Shown in pieces: positions 2,443 through 16,602 of a stretch of 45,629 nucleotides of DNA. Position numbers and translations under genes: made by a program. The notes under the pieces were generated by a model. It saw only the letters and a program-made list of their open reading frames with translations, was not told where the DNA came from and did not search any database. Each line of letters starts with the position of its first letter. Positions within the stretch are counted from its first letter, which is position 1. Origin of the DNA: Sphingobacteriales bacterium (lineage in GTDB: Bacteria; Bacteroidota; Bacteroidia; Chitinophagales; CAIOSU01); assembly GCA_027486795.1 (NCBI GenBank), contig JAIXOI010000057.1:90896-136524 (forward strand). Reading direction: 5' to 3'.

Positions 2443-3885
2443 ATGTACATGGAAACAACCTATGAAGATGTATGGAAAAACTGTCTAAAAATTATTCGGG
2501 ATAATGTTAGCTTGCAATCGTTTAAGACTTGGTTTGAGCCTATTAAGCCAGTAAGGCTTGAGAATAGCGTGCTTACCATTCAAGTGCCCAGCCAGTTCTT
2601 TTACGAATGGCTAGAAGAGCACTATGTAGGTTTGCTGCGCAAAACTATAAAGCGCGAACTTGGCATTGATGCACGATTGGAGTACCGTATTGTAGTAGAT
2701 AATAGTGCAGGCAATGCTAAACCGTTCACGGTAAACTATCCAAACTACAACACGGGCAACAACAAAAACCCTGAAGTAGCTGCACCATTAGTTATGGGTA
2801 ACTCAATTAAAAACCCGTTCATCATTCCGGGATTGAAGAAGGTGAACATCGAATCGCAATTGTCGCCTGCTTACAACTTCGACAATTTCGTGGAAGGTGA
2901 TTGCAACCGTTTGGCCCGCTCTGCTGGTTTTGCCGTGGCTACCAAGCCTCCAGGCACTACGGCCTTCAATCCTTTAGTGGTTTATGGTGGGGTTGGTTTG
3001 GGTAAAACCCATTTGGTGCAAGCTATCGGAAATCAGTTTAAGCAACATTTCCCGAACAAGACAGTTTTGTACGTTTCATCTGAGAAATTTACAAACCAAT
3101 TTATCGAGGCATTAAAAAATAATGCCGTTAACGACTTTATCCATTTCTATCATCTTATTGATGTGTTGATTGTGGACGATATCCAGTTTTTTGCCAACAA
3201 AGACAAAACCCAGGACATATTCTTCCACATTTTCAACCACTTGCACCAAGGTGGCAAGCAATTGATATTGACCAGCGACCGCAGCCCGCGCGACCTAGAA
3301 GGTATGGAAGAGCGTTTATTGAGCCGCTTTAAGTGGGGGCTATCTGCCGATTTGCAAGTGCCTGATTTCGAGACCCGAATCGCCATCCTTGAGAAGAAGA
3401 TGTATGCCGATGGTATTGAATTGCCACGCGAAGTAGTTGAGTTTGTAGCGTACAACATCAATACCAACATCCGTGAGCTGGAAGGTGCCTTGATTTCGCT
3501 TTTGGCCCAAGCATCTCTGAACAAAAAGGAGATTGACATTGAGCTAGCGAAGAAAATCATCAAGAACTTTGTGAAGAGCATTAGCCGCGAGGTATCTATT
3601 GAGTACATACAGAAAACCGTATGCGAGCACTTTGAGATACCCATGGATAAGCTTAAAGAAAAGACCCGCAAACGTGCTATCGTTCAAGCGCGCCAGCTAT
3701 CTATGTTCTTGGCCAAAAACTTCACTAAGAATTCACTTAAAGTTATTGGTAAGCATTTCGGTGGACGCGACCACAGCACCGTAATACACTCTTGCCAAGC
3801 CGTGCAGAATTTGATTGATACCGATGGCGAGTTCCGCGACAGTGTTAAGGAAATCCAGAAAAAAATCCAATTGAGCATTACCTAA
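2443..3885 (+). CDS. dnaA: Chromosomal replication initiator DnaA
   Basis: DnaA binds origin DnaA boxes, forms an ATP-dependent filament and opens the duplex to start replication. All four domains are visible in 480 residues: domain I with the DnaB-interacting region (about 1-82), a short Asn-rich linker (88-135), the AAA+ core with Walker A GGVGLGKT (182-189) and Walker B VLIVDDIQFF (241-250), and the C-terminal DNA-binding domain with the signature GGRDHSTVIHS near residues 443-453. Two in-frame ATGs occur, at 2443 and 2449; either could be used. The gene is followed by a strong terminator and is monocistronic. The usual dnaN partner is not adjacent. Confidence 0.97.
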   Translation: MYMETTYEDVWKNCLKIIRDNVSLQSFKTWFEPIKPVRLENSVLTIQVPSQFFYEWLEEHYVGLLRKTIKRELGIDARLEYRIVVDNSAGNAKPFTVNYPNYNTGNNKNPEVAAPLVMGNSIKNPFIIPGLKKVNIESQLSPAYNFDNFVEGDCNRLARSAGFAVATKPPGTTAFNPLVVYGGVGLGKTHLVQAIGNQFKQHFPNKTVLYVSSEKFTNQFIEALKNNAVNDFIHFYHLIDVLIVDDIQFFANKDKTQDIFFHIFNHLHQGGKQLILTSDRSPRDLEGMEERLLSRFKWGLSADLQVPDFETRIAILEKKMYADGIELPREVVEFVAYNINTNIRELEGALISLLAQASLNKKEIDIELAKKIIKNFVKSISREVSIEYIQKTVCEHFEIPMDKLKEKTRKRAIVQARQLSMFLAKNFTKNSLKVIGKHFGGRDHSTVIHSCQAVQNLIDTDGEFRDSVKEIQKKIQLSIT

Positions 3886-9138: not shown

Positions 9139-10476
9139 ATGGAAAAACCATCCTTTTTAGAGCGCGCCAATAATTGGGTTCGCAACTCGGTTACGCTTCG
9201 CTTAGTTACCATGGGTATTCTTATTCTGTTGCTATTAATACCTGTAAATATGGTGGAAAGCCTGATAAGGGAGCGCGAATACCGCAAGGAGGATGCAGTG
9301 AAGGAAGTAAGTGGCAAATGGGGCAATGAGCAAATAGTGGCAGGCCCTGTGCTTACAGTGCCTTATCTTGAGTACAATAAGCAATATAACAACGATACGA
9401 AAGAATGTATACTGGTGCCTACCCGCAGGTATGCCCATTTTTTACCTGAGGCCTTAAACATTGATGGCGAAATTCTGCCCGAAATTCGGTACCGTGGCAT
9501 ATACAAAGTAGTGGTTTACAAGGCCGCCCTCAAACTAACAGGCACCTTTAATAGGCCCAATTTTGAGGAATGGAAAATATCTGACAGCGATGTACTTTGG
9601 GGCGAATCGTTTGTATCGCTGGGCCTTACCGACCTAAGAGGCATACAACAAAACGTGGATTTAGGCTGGAACAACCAAACATACTCTTTTAACCCTGGTG
9701 TAGAAACAAATGAAGTGATTACAACCGGCATAAGTGCCATATTGCCCATTGATACATCAAAAGTGGGCAATACGTACAGCCTAAGTTTAAACTTTAATGG
9801 TAGCAGCTTGCTTGAGTTTATGCCGTTGGGTAAAACCACTACCGTAAACATTACCTCGCCGTGGGCAACGCCTAGCTTCGATGGAGCATTCTTACCCGAC
9901 GAGCGCAACATAACAGACGATGGTTTTACGGCCATGTGGGATGTGCTACACCTCAATCGCCCATACCCTCAAAGCTTTAGAGGTGGAACAACGGGGTTAG
10001 ATGGTTCGGCATTTGGTGTTAAGCTAATTCTGCCCGTTGATGAGTACCAAAAGAGTATGCGATCGGCCAAATATGCTGTTATGTTTATTGTGCTCACGTT
10101 CATTATCATTTTCTTTGTGCAAATAATGTACAAGGTGCGCGTGCACCCAATACAATACATTATTGTAGGCTTGGCGCTATGTGTGTTCTATACCTTGCTC
10201 ATTGGCCTGTCAGAATATATTCCGTTTGCTTACAGCTATTTAATCTCTAGTGTGGGCATTATTACCTTGATAACCCTCTACAGCCAGACCATTTTTCATG
10301 TTAAGCGCATTACCACTCTTATAGGCTTGCTACTAACGGTGCTTTACCTATTCATCTTCACCATCGTTCAGATGGAAGATTTTGCCTTGCTGATGGGTAG
10401 TATCGGCCTATTTATAGTATTGGCTACCATTATGTACCTATCGCGCAAAATCAATTGGTATAATATTGAGAAGTAG
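9139..10476 (+). CDS. creD: CreD family inner-membrane protein
   Basis: CreD is an inner-membrane protein of unknown biochemical role; in E. coli it is under CreBC control and affects colicin tolerance and envelope properties. The family layout is intact in 445 residues: one N-terminal membrane segment (about 22-40), a large periplasmic domain beginning with the conserved REREYRKEDAVKEVSGKWG region, and a C-terminal block of about six membrane segments from roughly 312 to 438. No CreBC two-component pair is nearby, so regulation is probably different here. The ATG at 9139 is preceded by a TATTTTG that may be a -7 element (9106-9112). Confidence 0.9.
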   Translation: MEKPSFLERANNWVRNSVTLRLVTMGILILLLLIPVNMVESLIREREYRKEDAVKEVSGKWGNEQIVAGPVLTVPYLEYNKQYNNDTKECILVPTRRYAHFLPEALNIDGEILPEIRYRGIYKVVVYKAALKLTGTFNRPNFEEWKISDSDVLWGESFVSLGLTDLRGIQQNVDLGWNNQTYSFNPGVETNEVITTGISAILPIDTSKVGNTYSLSLNFNGSSLLEFMPLGKTTTVNITSPWATPSFDGAFLPDERNITDDGFTAMWDVLHLNRPYPQSFRGGTTGLDGSAFGVKLILPVDEYQKSMRSAKYAVMFIVLTFIIIFFVQIMYKVRVHPIQYIIVGLALCVFYTLLIGLSEYIPFAYSYLISSVGIITLITLYSQTIFHVKRITTLIGLLLTVLYLFIFTIVQMEDFALLMGSIGLFIVLATIMYLSRKINWYNIEK

Positions 10477-10517
10477 GAAATGTGATAGTAAAACGGTAAA
10501 AAAACCATCTTAACCTA

Positions 10518-10970
10518 ATGCCACAATCCCTGTCCTGTAATTATCTCCATGTGGTTTTTAGTACCAAATACCGTCAGCCGCTAATTGATGAAAACATTGA
10601 GACAGAACTACATGCTTATTTAGGGGGTATTTGCAACGAAATGGATTGCCTGCCCATTAAAATTGGCGGCTATTACGACCATATCCATATCCTTTTCAAC
10701 CTATCTCGTAAACATGCATTAATGAAGGTTATGGAAGAGGTAAAAGGCCACTCTAGCAAATGGATAAAAACAAGGGGCGAACAATATGCTAACTTCTATT
10801 GGCAAGATGGTTATGGTGCCTTTTCTGTCAGTCCTTCGCACTTAGATGCGGTGGTTAATTATATTGCCAACCAACATAAACACCATGACGAACTTTCGTT
10901 TATGGATGAATGCAGGGGGTTGTACAAAAAATACAAAACGGATTACGATGAGCGGTATGTGTGGGATTAA
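10518..10970 (+). CDS. tnpA: IS200/IS605-type (Y1) transposase, RAYT-like
   Basis: This single-strand DNA transposase belongs to the HUH Y1 family (Transposase_17). It has the family layout in 150 residues: N-terminal HVVFSTKYRQPL, the metal-binding HUH motif DHIHILF with H55 and H57, the helix with GHSSKWIKT, FYWQDGYGAFSVS, and then NYIANQ, where Y115 is the expected nucleophile and Q119 the third metal ligand. All catalytic positions are present, so it may be active. No accessory tnpB is adjacent. A long palindrome follows just after the stop. Either a minimal IS200-type element or a domesticated REP-associated transposase; the missing left-end structure leaves this open. Confidence 0.88.
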   Translation: MPQSLSCNYLHVVFSTKYRQPLIDENIETELHAYLGGICNEMDCLPIKIGGYYDHIHILFNLSRKHALMKVMEEVKGHSSKWIKTRGEQYANFYWQDGYGAFSVSPSHLDAVVNYIANQHKHHDELSFMDECRGLYKKYKTDYDERYVWD

Positions 10971-10985
10971 TTCTATTATGTGGAA

Positions 10986-11077
10986 GGGCGGTGCCCTTTG
11001 CTAATATCTAGTGCCCCTTTGGGGCGTATGCGTTTTCGCCCCAAAGAGGCATAATAGGTTAGCCAAGGGCAAAGCCC
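10986..11077. repeat. 92-bp nested palindrome behind the transposase
   Basis: Outer arms 10986-11004 and 11059-11077 pair over 19 positions with three mismatches. Inner arms 11013-11026 (GCCCCTTTGGGGCG) and 11037-11050 (CGCCCCAAAGAGGC) pair over 14 with one mismatch, around a 10-nt loop. The whole could form a long cruciform or RNA hairpin. Confidence 0.85.
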
Positions 11078-11189
11078 TATGGCAATAGGGTAAGTACCTC
11101 CGCCATTTTGTCATAATCCACCCCATGGCACGGGCTTTGATTTGCCCATACTACATACCCATTTTCATTAACCAATAACTGCTATAACA

Positions 11190-13079
11190 ATGACCCTAGA
11201 GACCGGACACATACAGGTACAGACCGAAAACATCTTCCCAATAATAAAGAAATTCCTGTATTCTGACCACGAGATTTTCTTGCGCGAATTGGTGAGCAAC
11301 GCTGTGGATGCTACCGAAAAATTAAAAAAGCTATCATCGCTGGGGCAAATATCGGGCGAGCTTGGTAGCGTCAATGTTTCTATCAGCATCGATGAGGCTG
11401 CCAAAACCCTCACCATTAGCGACCGTGGCATTGGCATGACGGGCGAAGAAGTGAAAAAGTACATCAACCAAATTGCCTTCAGCAGCGCTACCGAGTTTTT
11501 GGATAAATTCAAAGAAGCCGATGCGGGTGACAAAACCAACATCATCGGTCATTTTGGCTTGGGCTTTTACAGTGCCTTTATGGTGGCCGACCAAGTAGAG
11601 ATTATTACCCGCAGCTATAAAGAGGGCAGCACTCCCGTAAAATGGACCTGCGATGGCAGCCCCAACTATACCCTCGAAGAAACCGAGAAAGCAGAACGAG
11701 GCACTGACATAATACTGCACATCAATGAAGAGAACAAGGAATACTTAGAGCAAATTCGCATTGAAACGCTCTTGAACAAGTATTGCAAGTTTTTGCCCGT
11801 GCCCATTCAGTTTGGTACCAACGAGCATACCGAGAAAGTGGGGGAGGGCGATGATGCCAAGGAGGAAACCATCGTTACCCCAAACATCATCAACAATACC
11901 AACCCGGCCTGGATTCACCAACCTAGCGAGTTAAAGGACGAAGACTACCAAGCCTTTTACAAAGAACTATACCCATATAGCGAACCGCCGCTATTCTGGA
12001 TTCATTTAAATGTCGATTTTCCGTTTAACCTTACCGGTATTTTATACTTCCCTAAGGTGGGCAACAATTTTGAGATGCAACGCAACAAGATTCAGTTGTA
12101 CAGCAACCAAGTATTTGTAACCGATGCAGTAGAGAACATTGTGCCCGAGTTTTTGATGCACCTGCACGGTGTTATCGATTCGCCAGATATCCCACTCAAC
12201 GTATCGCGTAGCTATTTGCAAAGCGACCCGAACGTGAAGAAGATTAATGCCCACATTACCAAAAAAGTTGCCGATAAGCTGAATGAGCTGTTTAACAACA
12301 GCCGCGAAGATTTTGAAACCAAATGGGATCAAATTGAGCTGTTTGTGAAATTTGGCATGATAAGCGACGACAAGTTTTATGACCGTGCCAAAGGCTTTTG
12401 CCTGTTGAAAAACACCGAGGGCAAGCACTTCACTTTTGAAGAGTATACGGAGCACATTAAGGCCACCCAAACCGACAAAAACGGACAGGCTGTAATTTTG
12501 TATGCCACTAACACCGAAGACCAAGACGCTTTTGTGCAGGCGGCCAAAACCCGCGGCTACGATGTGCTGGTGCTAAGCAACCTGCTTGATAACCACTTTA
12601 TTAACCAATTGGAAGGTAAGCTGGAGAAAACAAGCTTTAAGCGCGTGGATGCCGATACCATGAGCAATTTGATTGAGAAGGACGAAAAGCAAGAATCGGT
12701 GCTGAGTAAAGAAGAAGAAGATAAGGTGCAGCACATTTTTACCGATGCCATTAGCGATGTACACGTAACTGTGGTTACTAAAGCGCTTAGCCCCGACGAC
12801 CAACCGATATTGATAACCAAGCCCGAGTGGATGCGCCGTATGAAAGACATGGCCGCTGTAAGTGGTGGTGGCGGCATGGGATTCGGTAACTTGCCCGATC
12901 AGCTGAACTTGGTGATAAATACCAACCATCCGCTAATTGGCAAAGTACTGAGTGCGGAAGGCGATGAGCAAGGCAAACTCACTACCCAGCTTTACGATTT
13001 GGCCCTACTAAGCCAAAACCTATTGCGCGGCCAAAAACTCACTGAGTTTATTAAGCGCAGCGTTGGTTTGATGAATTAA
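11190..13079 (+). CDS. htpG: Molecular chaperone HtpG (Hsp90)
   Basis: HtpG is the bacterial Hsp90, an ATP-driven dimeric chaperone. The GHKL ATPase domain is at the N-terminus: FLRELVSNAVDATEK with E33 as the general base, DRGIGM (78-83), and the ATP lid GHFGLGFYSAFM (120-131). Middle and C-terminal dimerisation domains follow, total 629 residues against 624 in E. coli. A slightly acidic insert (about 212-226) is seen in the middle domain. The ATG at 11190 is used. It is monocistronic, with a terminator 28 bp after the stop. Confidence 0.97.
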   Translation: MTLETGHIQVQTENIFPIIKKFLYSDHEIFLRELVSNAVDATEKLKKLSSLGQISGELGSVNVSISIDEAAKTLTISDRGIGMTGEEVKKYINQIAFSSATEFLDKFKEADAGDKTNIIGHFGLGFYSAFMVADQVEIITRSYKEGSTPVKWTCDGSPNYTLEETEKAERGTDIILHINEENKEYLEQIRIETLLNKYCKFLPVPIQFGTNEHTEKVGEGDDAKEETIVTPNIINNTNPAWIHQPSELKDEDYQAFYKELYPYSEPPLFWIHLNVDFPFNLTGILYFPKVGNNFEMQRNKIQLYSNQVFVTDAVENIVPEFLMHLHGVIDSPDIPLNVSRSYLQSDPNVKKINAHITKKVADKLNELFNNSREDFETKWDQIELFVKFGMISDDKFYDRAKGFCLLKNTEGKHFTFEEYTEHIKATQTDKNGQAVILYATNTEDQDAFVQAAKTRGYDVLVLSNLLDNHFINQLEGKLEKTSFKRVDADTMSNLIEKDEKQESVLSKEEEDKVQHIFTDAISDVHVTVVTKALSPDDQPILITKPEWMRRMKDMAAVSGGGGMGFGNLPDQLNLVINTNHPLIGKVLSAEGDEQGKLTTQLYDLALLSQNLLRGQKLTEFIKRSVGLMN

Positions 13080-13747: not shown

Positions 13748-15262
13748 TCAAAACTGTAAATAAATGAACGGGACCATATCGGCGGATACCGATTGGTAGA
13801 TTACAATCACCACAAACACACAAAATGCCACCTGCAAGGGCATAGGTGCATCAATAAATGTTTGCTCTCCTTTGGCTTTCCAACTGTATGGCAACCAATG
13901 CAAAATCATACCCAGTGTGGCCACTGCAAACACGCCCTTATATGCCCAAAGCACTTTGGGTATATACTCCCATGCAAAATTGTGGGCAACTTGGTCAAAA
14001 AACACCCGCACGCCTTCCATCGTATCGGCCCTGAAAAAGATACGGGTGAATGTAATGAACGTAAACGTGAGCATTACACGCCAAGCTATTACCATCCAGT
14101 TTTTGGAGTTTTCGTAGGGGCTTACTTTTTTCCAAAACTTGTATACTACTAGCCCAAGGCCGTTGAGCCCGCCCCAGATAACAAACTGCCAACTAGCACC
14201 ATGCCATAAGCCACCCAATAGCATAGTAAGCAGCAGGTTTACTTCGGTGCGCACGGCACCGTGCCGGTTTCCGCCAAGGGGTATGTACAAGTAATCTTTC
14301 AAAAATGACGATAGAGAGATGTGCCATCTGCGCCAAAACTCGGCCACGCTTACGGCCTTGTAGGGTGAGTTGAAATTGTCTTTGAGTACAAAGCCCATGA
14401 GCACTGCCAAACCAATAGCTATATCGGTATAGCCCGAAAAGTCGCAATAGATTTGCACTGAGTAGCTAAAAATGGCCGCTACATGCTCAAAGCCGGTGTA
14501 GGTGTGGGGGTTGTCGAATACCCTATCGATAAAGTTGACCGTTAAATAATCGGCAATGAACATTTTTTTGAACAGCCCTTTCAATATCATCCATATACCA
14601 TGGCCAAATTGCTGGCGGGTAACCAGGGTGGGTTGGTACAGTTGCGGCAGAAAATCTTTGGCACGGGTAATGGGGCCCATAATCAAGCTCGGAAAAAAAG
14701 CAAGGTACAGGCCATAATCAAAAATGTTTTTGGCCGGCTCCAGCTCCTTTCGGTATATATCTACCAGGTAAGAGATGATTTTGAAGGTAAAGAACGAAAT
14801 ACCCAACGGTAGCAGTATATCAGTAACATTGAAACTTTGCTCGCCTTTAAGCTGGTTGGCAAATGCTGCAAAGTGATCGAAAACTTTAAACGAGGTGCCG
14901 AAAATATCGTTGATGCTGTTTACTACAAAGTATGAGTACTTGTAGTACCCCAATATAAATAGGTGGAAGGTAATACCTGTGGCTACCGATGCTTTGCGAA
15001 CTATTGCGTTGCTTGAGCTATGAATTACCTGCCCCAGCAAGTAGCTAACAAGCGTAGATAGCATAAGCAAGGCCACAAAGCTGCCGCCTGTTTTGTAATA
15101 AAAAAACCACGATGCAGCTAGCAAATAAAGCGTGCGCATTGTTTTGAAACGATTGATAGCCGCAAACCCAATGTAAACAAGGAGGAAAAAAATCCAGAAA
15201 TCGGCACCGGTAAATACGAGCGCCAACGATTTGAAAGAGAGCAGGTCGGTAAGGCGTTCCAT
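13748..15262 (-). CDS. MBOAT family O-acyltransferase (AlgI-like)
   Basis: Membrane-bound O-acyltransferase that moves an acyl group, usually acetyl, across the inner membrane for transfer to an extracellular polymer. The AlgI/DltB-type core is complete: CDFSGYTDIAIGLA (about 273-286), FWRRWHISLSSFLKDYLYIP (309-328), GGNRHG, and the invariant His H354 in GGLWHGASW. It has about ten membrane segments in 504 residues. It is the last gene of a three-gene - strand operon; its ATG overlaps the stop of the SGNH gene by one base (TAATG). The partners suggest O-acetylation of a polysaccharide or cell-wall glycan; the substrate is unknown. Confidence 0.92.
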   Translation of the reverse strand: MERLTDLLSFKSLALVFTGADFWIFFLLVYIGFAAINRFKTMRTLYLLAASWFFYYKTGGSFVALLMLSTLVSYLLGQVIHSSSNAIVRKASVATGITFHLFILGYYKYSYFVVNSINDIFGTSFKVFDHFAAFANQLKGEQSFNVTDILLPLGISFFTFKIISYLVDIYRKELEPAKNIFDYGLYLAFFPSLIMGPITRAKDFLPQLYQPTLVTRQQFGHGIWMILKGLFKKMFIADYLTVNFIDRVFDNPHTYTGFEHVAAIFSYSVQIYCDFSGYTDIAIGLAVLMGFVLKDNFNSPYKAVSVAEFWRRWHISLSSFLKDYLYIPLGGNRHGAVRTEVNLLLTMLLGGLWHGASWQFVIWGGLNGLGLVVYKFWKKVSPYENSKNWMVIAWRVMLTFTFITFTRIFFRADTMEGVRVFFDQVAHNFAWEYIPKVLWAYKGVFAVATLGMILHWLPYSWKAKGEQTFIDAPMPLQVAFCVFVVIVIYQSVSADMVPFIYLQF

Positions 15263-16602
15263 TAGCGTTTATTAGCGGGGATTGCGGTTTTACTATCGAG
15301 GTAGTTTTGGTATAAGCGCTTAAACGCATCCCAGAAAAGTTCGCCCTTTAATATGTACCCGTTGTAAGTAAAATGTATCAAGTCCTTTTTCATCATGCCC
15401 GCTAGGTTCCATTTTTTTGACGAGCGCAGGCCGCCCATTATCTTGTAGCAATCCCACACCAAAGCGTTGTGTTTTACGGCAAGTTTATAAATAGCGCTTT
15501 CAATTTTGGCTGTATTCAGGTTAGGGTACTTGCGTTTATAGTAGCTATCGTTGGGCACGGTAAATATAAATTGGGCATCGCTGTTTACAGCCCTTATCAT
15601 TTGTATAAAGGTATCATACTTAGCCATAAAACCATCCTCGGTAAAGTCGCCTTCAAAGCTATCGTTGGTGCCAATGGAGATGATTACCAAATCGGGATTG
15701 ATTTCAACCAAATGCTGCTCAAACAGGGCGCATCTAAAATTGCTCTTAAAGCTTGAGCCATTTGCACCTATGGAGTGGTAGGCTATACCTGGCTCATCGT
15801 TTTCCATGATAATGCCATACAGCTCAAAAGGCGCAGGGTTGGTAGTATCCGTTTTGGTTATTACCAAATGCATGCTATCGGTGGGTTGTTTTAGCTTGAA
15901 TTTGTAGTAGCCCAAAGATAGGTGCTGCTCAATAACCATAATATTTTCTTTGGGTAGCAACTCTACGGTATAGCTGCTGGCCGTGTCGCATAGCACTTTT
16001 ACTTCGGTAAACGGGGTGCTGGCGCAGCTTTCGCGTACTTTTAAGCTAATGGTGGCCAATGTATCAAGGGTGCTGGCGGTTATACCGGTTATGCCCCAAG
16101 TGCCAGTATGGTAGCTTACCGCAGCGCGGTGGCCCTGCCAAGTGCCAGTATAACTTACTCTATAGTTGGCTGGGTTGTTAGTATTAATAATAGAAAACGG
16201 AAATACTAGGCCCCTTGGCCCTGCCATGCTTGCATTCATGCTTTGCAGGCTATCGCGCAGCAGGTTGCTGTAAACATCGGCTTGTATGTGCGAGCCACCA
16301 AAGTGCAAAACGTTTATCCTAAAGTTTTGGTGTGCCTTTAAGCTGTCTAGCAGCGGCCAAAAACCAAACGATGCCCCTCGGCTGCTGTCAAAACCCAGCA
16401 TAATGTTGTACTCCTGCTCTACGTAAGGATATATGGAAGCATCGAAAGGGGCAATTTTTTTTATAAAGGTATCCACTTCGGTCAGCGGGCCATCAATGGT
16501 GCTCACATTATCGGTATCGGGTATCAAATCGCCATCTGAATCGGTTACCTCTTGGGCTACCAATCCGTTGGCAAAAAACAAAAGCACTATCCAAACCCTC
16601 AT
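15262..16602 (-). CDS. Secreted SGNH/GDSL-family protein (AlgJ/AlgX-like role)
   Basis: A 446-residue exported protein: signal peptide about 1-16 ending at AQ. SGNH blocks are visible: GGSH (102-105) with the nucleophile S104, the block II Gly in SIGANGSSF (about 279), GTND (311-314) with N313, and D407-x-x-H410. The family covers esterases and O-acetyltransferases; beside an MBOAT protein the latter role is likely (inference). Just after the signal peptide is DSDGDLIPDTDN, which resembles a thrombospondin type 3 calcium-binding repeat. It overlaps both neighbours by one base, so translation is probably coupled through the operon. Confidence 0.85.
   Translation of the reverse strand: MRVWIVLLFFANGLVAQEVTDSDGDLIPDTDNVSTIDGPLTEVDTFIKKIAPFDASIYPYVEQEYNIMLGFDSSRGASFGFWPLLDSLKAHQNFRINVLHFGGSHIQADVYSNLLRDSLQSMNASMAGPRGLVFPFSIINTNNPANYRVSYTGTWQGHRAAVSYHTGTWGITGITASTLDTLATISLKVRESCASTPFTEVKVLCDTASSYTVELLPKENIMVIEQHLSLGYYKFKLKQPTDSMHLVITKTDTTNPAPFELYGIIMENDEPGIAYHSIGANGSSFKSNFRCALFEQHLVEINPDLVIISIGTNDSFEGDFTEDGFMAKYDTFIQMIRAVNSDAQFIFTVPNDSYYKRKYPNLNTAKIESAIYKLAVKHNALVWDCYKIMGGLRSSKKWNLAGMMKKDLIHFTYNGYILKGELFWDAFKRLYQNYLDSKTAIPANKR

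Follow-up and report, generated by a model that had tools for sequence, protein, structure and literature searches.

The stretch of DNA analyzed here, which we refer to as the window (45.6 kb of a Sphingobacteriales genome), carries a gene for a Y1 HUH transposase and, behind it, a long double palindrome (Table 1). The preceding open reading frame (ORF) ends at 10476, with 41 nt from there to the start codon of the transposase gene, and the next one begins at 11190, beyond both gene and palindrome. Judged from translations only, without a family search, these neighbors read as a CreD-like inner-membrane protein and an HtpG-like protein, respectively. No TnpB was recognized when the translations of the neighboring ORFs were read, a model search not being part of this inspection. 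Further along the window (13748-16602, minus strand), an ORF labeled in the same manner as an MBOAT-like O-acyltransferase adjoins an SGNH-hydrolase-like ORF.

Table 1. Features of the transposase locus, in window coordinates.
Feature	Position	Strand	Basis
Y1 HUH transposase, 150 aa, TnpA-Y1 subclass 1.2 type	10518..10970	+	DHIH, WQ, YIANQHKHH, ~30-aa C-terminal tail
Repeat unit 1, family A, head closest to the gene	10980..11030	+	Covariance model R1, 53.6 bits, E 2.0e-10
Unit 1 head hairpin, AAGGGC-GGT-GCCCTT	10984..10998	+	Sequence
Unit 1 tag, CTA on the plus strand (reads TAG, 5' of the head, on the complementary strand)	11001..11003	-	Sequence and cross-locus tag rule
Unit 1 tail hairpin, GCCCC-TTT-GGGGC	11013..11025	+	Sequence
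Repeat unit 2, family A, inverted, its tail facing that of unit 1	11033..11083	-	R1, 49.9 bits, E 1.8e-9
Unit 2 tail hairpin, GCCCC-AAA-GAGGC, one mismatch	11038..11050	-	Sequence
Unit 2 tag, TAG	11060..11062	+	Sequence
Unit 2 head hairpin, core AGGGC-AAA-GCCCT at 11066-11078	11063..11082	+	Sequence
Stretch absent at the matching site of genome G003	10481..11098		618 nt here, 33 nt in G003

The window protein scores 96.6 bits against Pfam Y1_Tnp and meets the Y1 transposase domain criterion of the IS200/IS605 family. It passes the NCBIfam model transpos_IS200 (76.4 bits, cut-off 55) and stays below the cut-off of REP_Tyr_transpos (21.8 bits, cut-off 80). The residues H55, H57, Y115 and Q119, on which a preliminary description of the locus had based its view of an intact transposase, are all present, and together with D54, W95, Q96, H122 and H123 they are invariant across 16 aligned relatives. 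The tyrosine motif reads YIANQHKHH, and the pattern Y---Q--HH occurs in all 16 aligned sequences. A search of solved structures with a profile of this alignment returned eight matches, the best being 2xm3 (E 1.9e-15); among the eight are what we take to be the TnpA proteins of ISDra2 and ISHp608.

The survey of Quentin et al. 2018 (PMC6006769) defines subclass 1.2 and supplies the class motifs Y---Q--HH and Y---NP; members of the subclass share DH[IV]H, WQ and Y---Q--HH, a length of ~148 aa with a ~30-aa C-terminal tail, low copy number and high diversity within a genome (~36% identity). All of these features are met here, the genome holding three Y1 genes, of which the other two are only 36-40% identical to that of the window; no further full-length copy of the window gene was found in its own genome. 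By sequence, the protein fits TnpA-Y1 subclass 1.2 and is not a RAYT. An identity as a known class-2 RAYT was rejected because the Y---NP motif is not met and because of the REP_Tyr_transpos score. An ordinary IS200 element, for which several near-identical whole copies would be the criterion, was rejected because no other whole copies were found; such copies were also what the preliminary description had named as grounds for abandoning its own view.

Fourteen nucleotides separate the stop codon from the palindrome (10985-11078), which consists of two 42-nt arms (10985-11026 and 11037-11078) that are 79% complementary and 10 nt apart. Folded as single-stranded DNA, the segment 10966-11100 reaches -32.2 kcal/mol (z -5.8), a value equaled by none of 200 dinucleotide shuffles. 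The long nested palindrome reported earlier is thereby borne out, and each of its arms is itself a two-hairpin unit of ~45 nt, ordered as head hairpin, CTA (TAG on the opposite strand), AT-rich spacer and tail hairpin. A covariance model of the unit (R1, built from 14 copies that include both window units) finds these two copies beside the gene and no others in the window at E 0.001. Left of the gene there is no comparable palindrome or hairpin, as had been observed before, and the IS200/IS605 criterion of hairpins at both ends is not met. The tags of the window units, read 5' of the head, are TAG preceded by T or A (GTTAG, ATTAG). They do not meet the RAYT criterion of a GT[AG]G tag at the hairpin foot; across loci the tag is YAG.

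Dispersed units in the genome and the genus

A DNA search with the palindrome returns short matches elsewhere in the same genome. The aligned copies, which we call family A, share the head hairpin, GCTA, the AT-rich spacer and the tail hairpin GCCCC-TTT-GGGGC. R1 detects 22 units in this 3.9-Mb genome at E <= 0.0034, eight of them absent from the 14 that built the model; two lie beside the window gene and 20 away from it. A genome search with the palindrome arms had been proposed earlier as the way to tell a REP/RAYT system from an insertion sequence, and the outcome is the REP/RAYT-like one.

Across 40 genomes including its own, R1 finds 22, 64, 28, 28 and 47 units in the five genomes of the genus and two in G017, which belongs to another family of the order; both of the latter lie within ~200 nt of a Y1 gene whose product is 67% identical to the window protein. 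None was detected by R1 in the remaining 34 genomes. In G001, two-hairpin units flank a 73%-identical homolog on both sides. G004 contains 47 family-A units, yet no Y1 gene at E 1e-10 in an assembly that is 78% complete; the units may persist after loss of the gene, or the gene may be missing from the assembly. G005 holds a 57-aa C-terminal fragment of a 67%-identical Y1 protein with AGGGCT/AGCCCT-type hairpins on both sides (L086, G005:C27:84605-87775), and despite this fragment the R1 search returned no family-A units there.

Positions are available for 153 of the 189 units of the genus, and 69 of these 153 lie within 150 nt of another unit. Seventeen pairs are arranged head to head, 14 of them with a gap of 27-28 nt, giving a doublet of ~132 nt; 12 pairs are tail to tail with varied gaps and nine run in the same direction. 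Family A meets the REPIN criterion of inverted pairs with a preferred spacing. Unlike the fixed head-to-head doublet, the window pair is of the tail-to-tail type, and we therefore read it as the joint between neighboring doublets. The 92-bp palindrome is best explained as two units joined by their tails, one oriented as units downstream of the gene usually are, plus an additional one.

Most inspected unit sites (28 of 33, some of them orthologous) lie outside ORFs of at least 80 aa. Among 84 distinct unit rows, 92.6% of the cells in the two helices are paired, with 133 double-change cells against 38 after shuffling, and none of 500 shuffles matched the observed count. This covariation figure leans towards structure, because the alignment was fitted to the model and includes orthologous copies. 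A separate alignment of units chosen for perfect stems gave 100% pairing, which is uninformative and was left unused.

The second Y1 gene of the genome (L002, G000:C44:100223-103654, gene at 1501-1932) encodes a protein 40% identical to that of the window and sits between two direct copies of a four-hairpin element of ~185 nt, unlike family A in sequence. This element (family B; types AACCGTT..AACGGTT and CCATGGTT..AACCATGG) recurs, often partially, in at least seven further places in the genome. The third Y1 gene (L003, G000:C39:34982-38407, gene at 1501-1926; 36% identity) has hairpin pairs on both sides, and a search of its own genome with this flank (family C) gave only one weak match besides itself, which rules it out as a dispersed family; its repeats perhaps belong to a young or dead one. 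Two of the three Y1 genes thus have separate repeat families, and the RAYT criterion of dispersed cognate palindromes with one family per gene is met for A and B, with C nearly undispersed.

Comparison of matching sites displays differences in both genes and units. The close relatives G003 and G002, whose HtpG proteins are 97% identical to that of the window genome, lack the window gene at the matching site. In G002 the site measures 58 nt against 589 nt here, and a lone related head hairpin persists in that intergenic spot. Conversely, G003 has its own 69%-identical Y1 gene with units, in 969 nt where the window genome has 56, and G002 carries the same locus, cut by a contig end. Gain and loss are not settled for these differences. 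The position of the window gene is not conserved between close species, and each type of gene is present in a single copy. Of the earlier suggestion of a domesticated unit, single copy number speaks in favor and the lack of a conserved position against.

For 13 unit sites of the window genome, one flank piece each was searched in the relatives, and it was found for 12 sites in G003, 12 in G002, seven in G001 and eight in G004. A unit lies within ~600 nt of the matched flank for 11 sites in G003, 10 in G002 and at least two in G004, and for none in G001 among the matches listed. Length differences at family-A sites amount to 86 vs 6 nt and 129 vs 42 nt in comparison with G004; against the window genome, G002 displays 234 vs 69 nt and G003 272 vs 72 nt. 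For family B, we observed insertions of 172 vs 13 nt relative to both G002 and G003, 202 vs 17 nt relative to G003 and 206 vs 6 nt relative to G002. Several other comparisons were unclean or concerned sites common to both genomes. Most family-A sites of the window genome are shared with G002 and G003, and recent movement is therefore demonstrated mainly for family B. No target duplication is evident by eye at the inspected junctions, and no sharp target-site sequence can be named, the junctions being too diverged around the inserts.

Related loci across phyla and the Acido-Lenti-1 motif

A profile search yielded at least 577 related loci, of which the best 80, many from metagenome bins, were compared. 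They stem from records titled Bacteroidota, Verrucomicrobia, Planctomycetes, Acidobacteria, Chloroflexi and others, and the Y---Q--HH signature was found at 72 and missed, as searched, at eight. Strong hairpins are enriched in the intergenic segments adjacent to the gene (46 of 105, vs 19 of 110 other intergenic segments, p 2.7e-5); this intergenic control is fairer than a mostly coding one and gives a smaller figure.

From viewing 10 of the 80 loci, we set a strict rule for the unit: tail hairpin, 4-18 nt, TAG or CAG, head hairpin. At the remaining 70 loci, this rule finds 41 units in the flanks of 26 loci (0.87/kb), as against six units at four loci in 246.5 kb of control stretches from the same loci (0.024/kb; controls mostly coding) and a single unit in 20 shuffled sets altogether. 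One of the 70 is the G017 gene (L166), which had been seen beforehand and has no unit by the strict rule. Over all 80 loci, the head points towards the gene in 43 of 58 units, and no unit is found by the rule at 46. Ordinary IS200/IS605 loci have a unit in none of eight cases. A crude TnpB motif was found at none of the 80 loci, a result that is uninformative because only one of the eight IS200/IS605 controls was recovered, while annotation places a TnpB adjacent to six of them and a "transposase" beside a seventh.

We examined 10 of the 53 plasmid records with a match. A plasmid member from Persicobacter, found separately, has an inward-facing unit on each side of the gene. The member on the Bernardetia sp. 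plasmid NZ_CP147018.1 (L312, gene at 3001-3468, subclass-1.2 type) has no unit by the rule. The inverted GCTGCGTAGCTGCG-type repeats on either side of it differ in shape from the unit, so there may be several types of repeat within the subclass.

The window has no match to Rfam at the cut-off, and a known RNA was rejected there on that ground. Its two units nevertheless align end to end with RF01687 (Acido-Lenti-1) at 18.1 and 11.9 bits, under the gathering cut-off of 37 bits, and the whole genome has one match (E 7e-4). The order of parts is the same in both, with a large hairpin, CTA, an AT-rich spacer and a 5-bp hairpin; they differ in that Acido-Lenti-1 is catalogued as an RNA from Acidobacteria and Lentisphaerae, whereas the unit flanks a transposase gene and its window copies score below the cut-off. 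The repeat of the window genome is related to Acido-Lenti-1, more loosely than elsewhere. Above the cut-off, 29 matches occur at 16 of the 80 loci (64 have none), and 25 of the 29 are no more than 300 nt away from the gene (p 1.8e-20, assuming an even spread).

In a phylum survey of 296 genomes (E 1e-3 for RF01687, E 1e-25 for the subclass-1.2 gene), 43 have both, 18 the motif only, 89 the gene only and 146 neither; the Fisher p of 5.8e-6 is overstated because the genomes are related. Put differently, 18 of 61 genomes with RF01687 lack the gene, 10 of them from one genus (g77), and 89 of 132 genomes with the gene lack RF01687. Both searches drew one genome set, among the matches listed, and counts of RF01687 per genome are lower bounds because 20 candidates were scored for each. 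No RF01687 match occurs in 14 control genomes. Starting from RF01687 instead, the gene signature lies within 1.5 kb at one of the 10 best-scoring loci, which is as expected for dispersed repeats, yet gives no support for the link.

Weinberg et al. 2010 (PMC2864571) rate the motif as "probably" RNA, from Acidobacteria and Lentisphaerae. A 2026 paper (PMC13298647) states that little is known of its function and reports motifs downstream of Tannerella KLIKK protease genes, guessed there to be regulatory; these could instead be dispersed repeats of a REP-like kind. A Vibrio paper (PMC10059132) lists further copies. In the parts of the literature open to us, which exclude subscription papers and preprints, we found none that joins Acido-Lenti-1 with a transposase or with subclass 1.2.

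A REP-like reading and its alternatives

The anatomy of the units, their dispersal, doublet spacing, the separate families of two of the three Y1 genes, co-distribution with the gene, presence or absence at matching sites and flanking position across phyla are observed directly. They very probably reflect a system of the REP/REPIN-like type in which the HUH transposase is of the IS200 class (TnpA-Y1 subclass 1.2) and the repeat is of the Acido-Lenti-1 kind, with mobilization, binding and cutting inferred. The REP/REPIN-RAYT systems of E. coli and P. fluorescens likewise combine an HUH Y1 enzyme, one copy per repeat family, with cognate short palindromes that are dispersed between genes, often as inverted doublets, carry a tag at the hairpin foot and flank the gene (for TnpA-REP substrates and REPINs, PMC8266576 and PMC3116915; for GTAG repeats, PMC3733652). 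They differ in their class-2 enzyme (Y---NP), against class 1 (Y---Q--HH) in the window, and the window unit has two hairpins with a spacer and a YAG in place of a GTAG tag. The label RAYT-like given to the locus earlier is hence apt for the apparent way of working, and fails by sequence, where the IS200 model and Y---Q--HH apply. In the 2018 survey (PMC6006769), the REP column reads "no" for subclass 1.2, whose members generally lack IS200 end structures and come mostly from Cyanobacteria and Bacteroidetes, whereas we find repeats beside the window gene and its relatives, and related loci in several more phyla by record title.

An ordinary IS200-type insertion sequence with a decayed left end, the palindrome being its right-end hairpin, would account for the NCBIfam equivalog above cut-off, for ISDra2 and ISHp608 TnpA as closest solved structures and for a gene at a polymorphic site. 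IS200/IS605 elements such as IS608 and ISDra2 also share hairpins near the gene and a presumed single-stranded DNA chemistry, though in the window the hairpins are one-sided. We nevertheless consider an insertion sequence of this type highly improbable: no second full copy was found in the genome, 20 of the 22 units are gene-less and remote from the gene, and the two-hairpin units on both sides of the G001 homolog have no counterpart at any of the eight ordinary loci. Scarcely credible, too, are MITE-like miniature elements moved by another transposase with the Y1 gene as a passenger. Short, gene-less units and the G004 genome, with units and no detected Y1, would suit such elements, but two of the three Y1 genes each adjoin a distinct dispersed family, the unit anatomy recurs beside subclass-1.2 genes in several phyla, and no target duplication was seen by eye.

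The palindromes might also be transcription terminators or structured RNAs that lie near the transposase only since both gather in intergenic space. Rfam types RF01687 as an sRNA, the 2010 study rates it "probably" RNA, and 12 of the 33 inspected unit sites lie between convergent genes, as terminators would. This, however, appears very unlikely, since the hairpin enrichment in the flanks survives the intergenic control, the RF01687 matches cluster within 300 nt of the gene, family A follows the transposase lineage even into another family (G017), and the fixed doublet spacing and insertion polymorphism fit a mobile repeat.

Within the REP-like reading, the enzyme is most likely what moves the repeats; this is an inference, as are binding, cleavage and a single-stranded DNA intermediate, made without binding or cutting data. 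The proposed unit would consist of a tail hairpin, a short spacer, the YAG tag and the head hairpin, and two inverted units with heads inward would form the ~132-nt doublet, probably the dispersing form. By analogy with the TnpA proteins of IS608 and ISDra2 and with E. coli TnpA-REP, the enzyme may bind the folded, single-stranded head hairpin, with the YAG at its foot serving as guide and Y115 cutting. Doublets would then travel in single-stranded form to new intergenic positions while the DNA is being replicated, without duplicating the target, and one gene copy would be kept per repeat family, beside its own units.

It is probable, with less assurance than for the REP-like system itself, that the Acido-Lenti-1 "RNA" is in the first place the single-stranded DNA repeat on which subclass 1.2 acts as its substrate, rather than an RNA. 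REP-type systems would thus have two or more origins, one involving class-2 RAYTs and another an IS200-class enzyme, the second type extending, by record titles, over Bacteroidota, Verrucomicrobia, Planctomycetes, Acidobacteria, Chloroflexi and Deltaproteobacteria. This would join two orphans, a subclass left in 2018 without REPs or IS features and a structured motif on record since 2010, and would provide subclass 1.2 with a testable substrate. It also cautions that mobile DNA repeats may hide among annotated "ncRNAs", and it would offer a second and separate instance in which to ask why bacteria retain single-copy transposases alongside families of very small palindromes.
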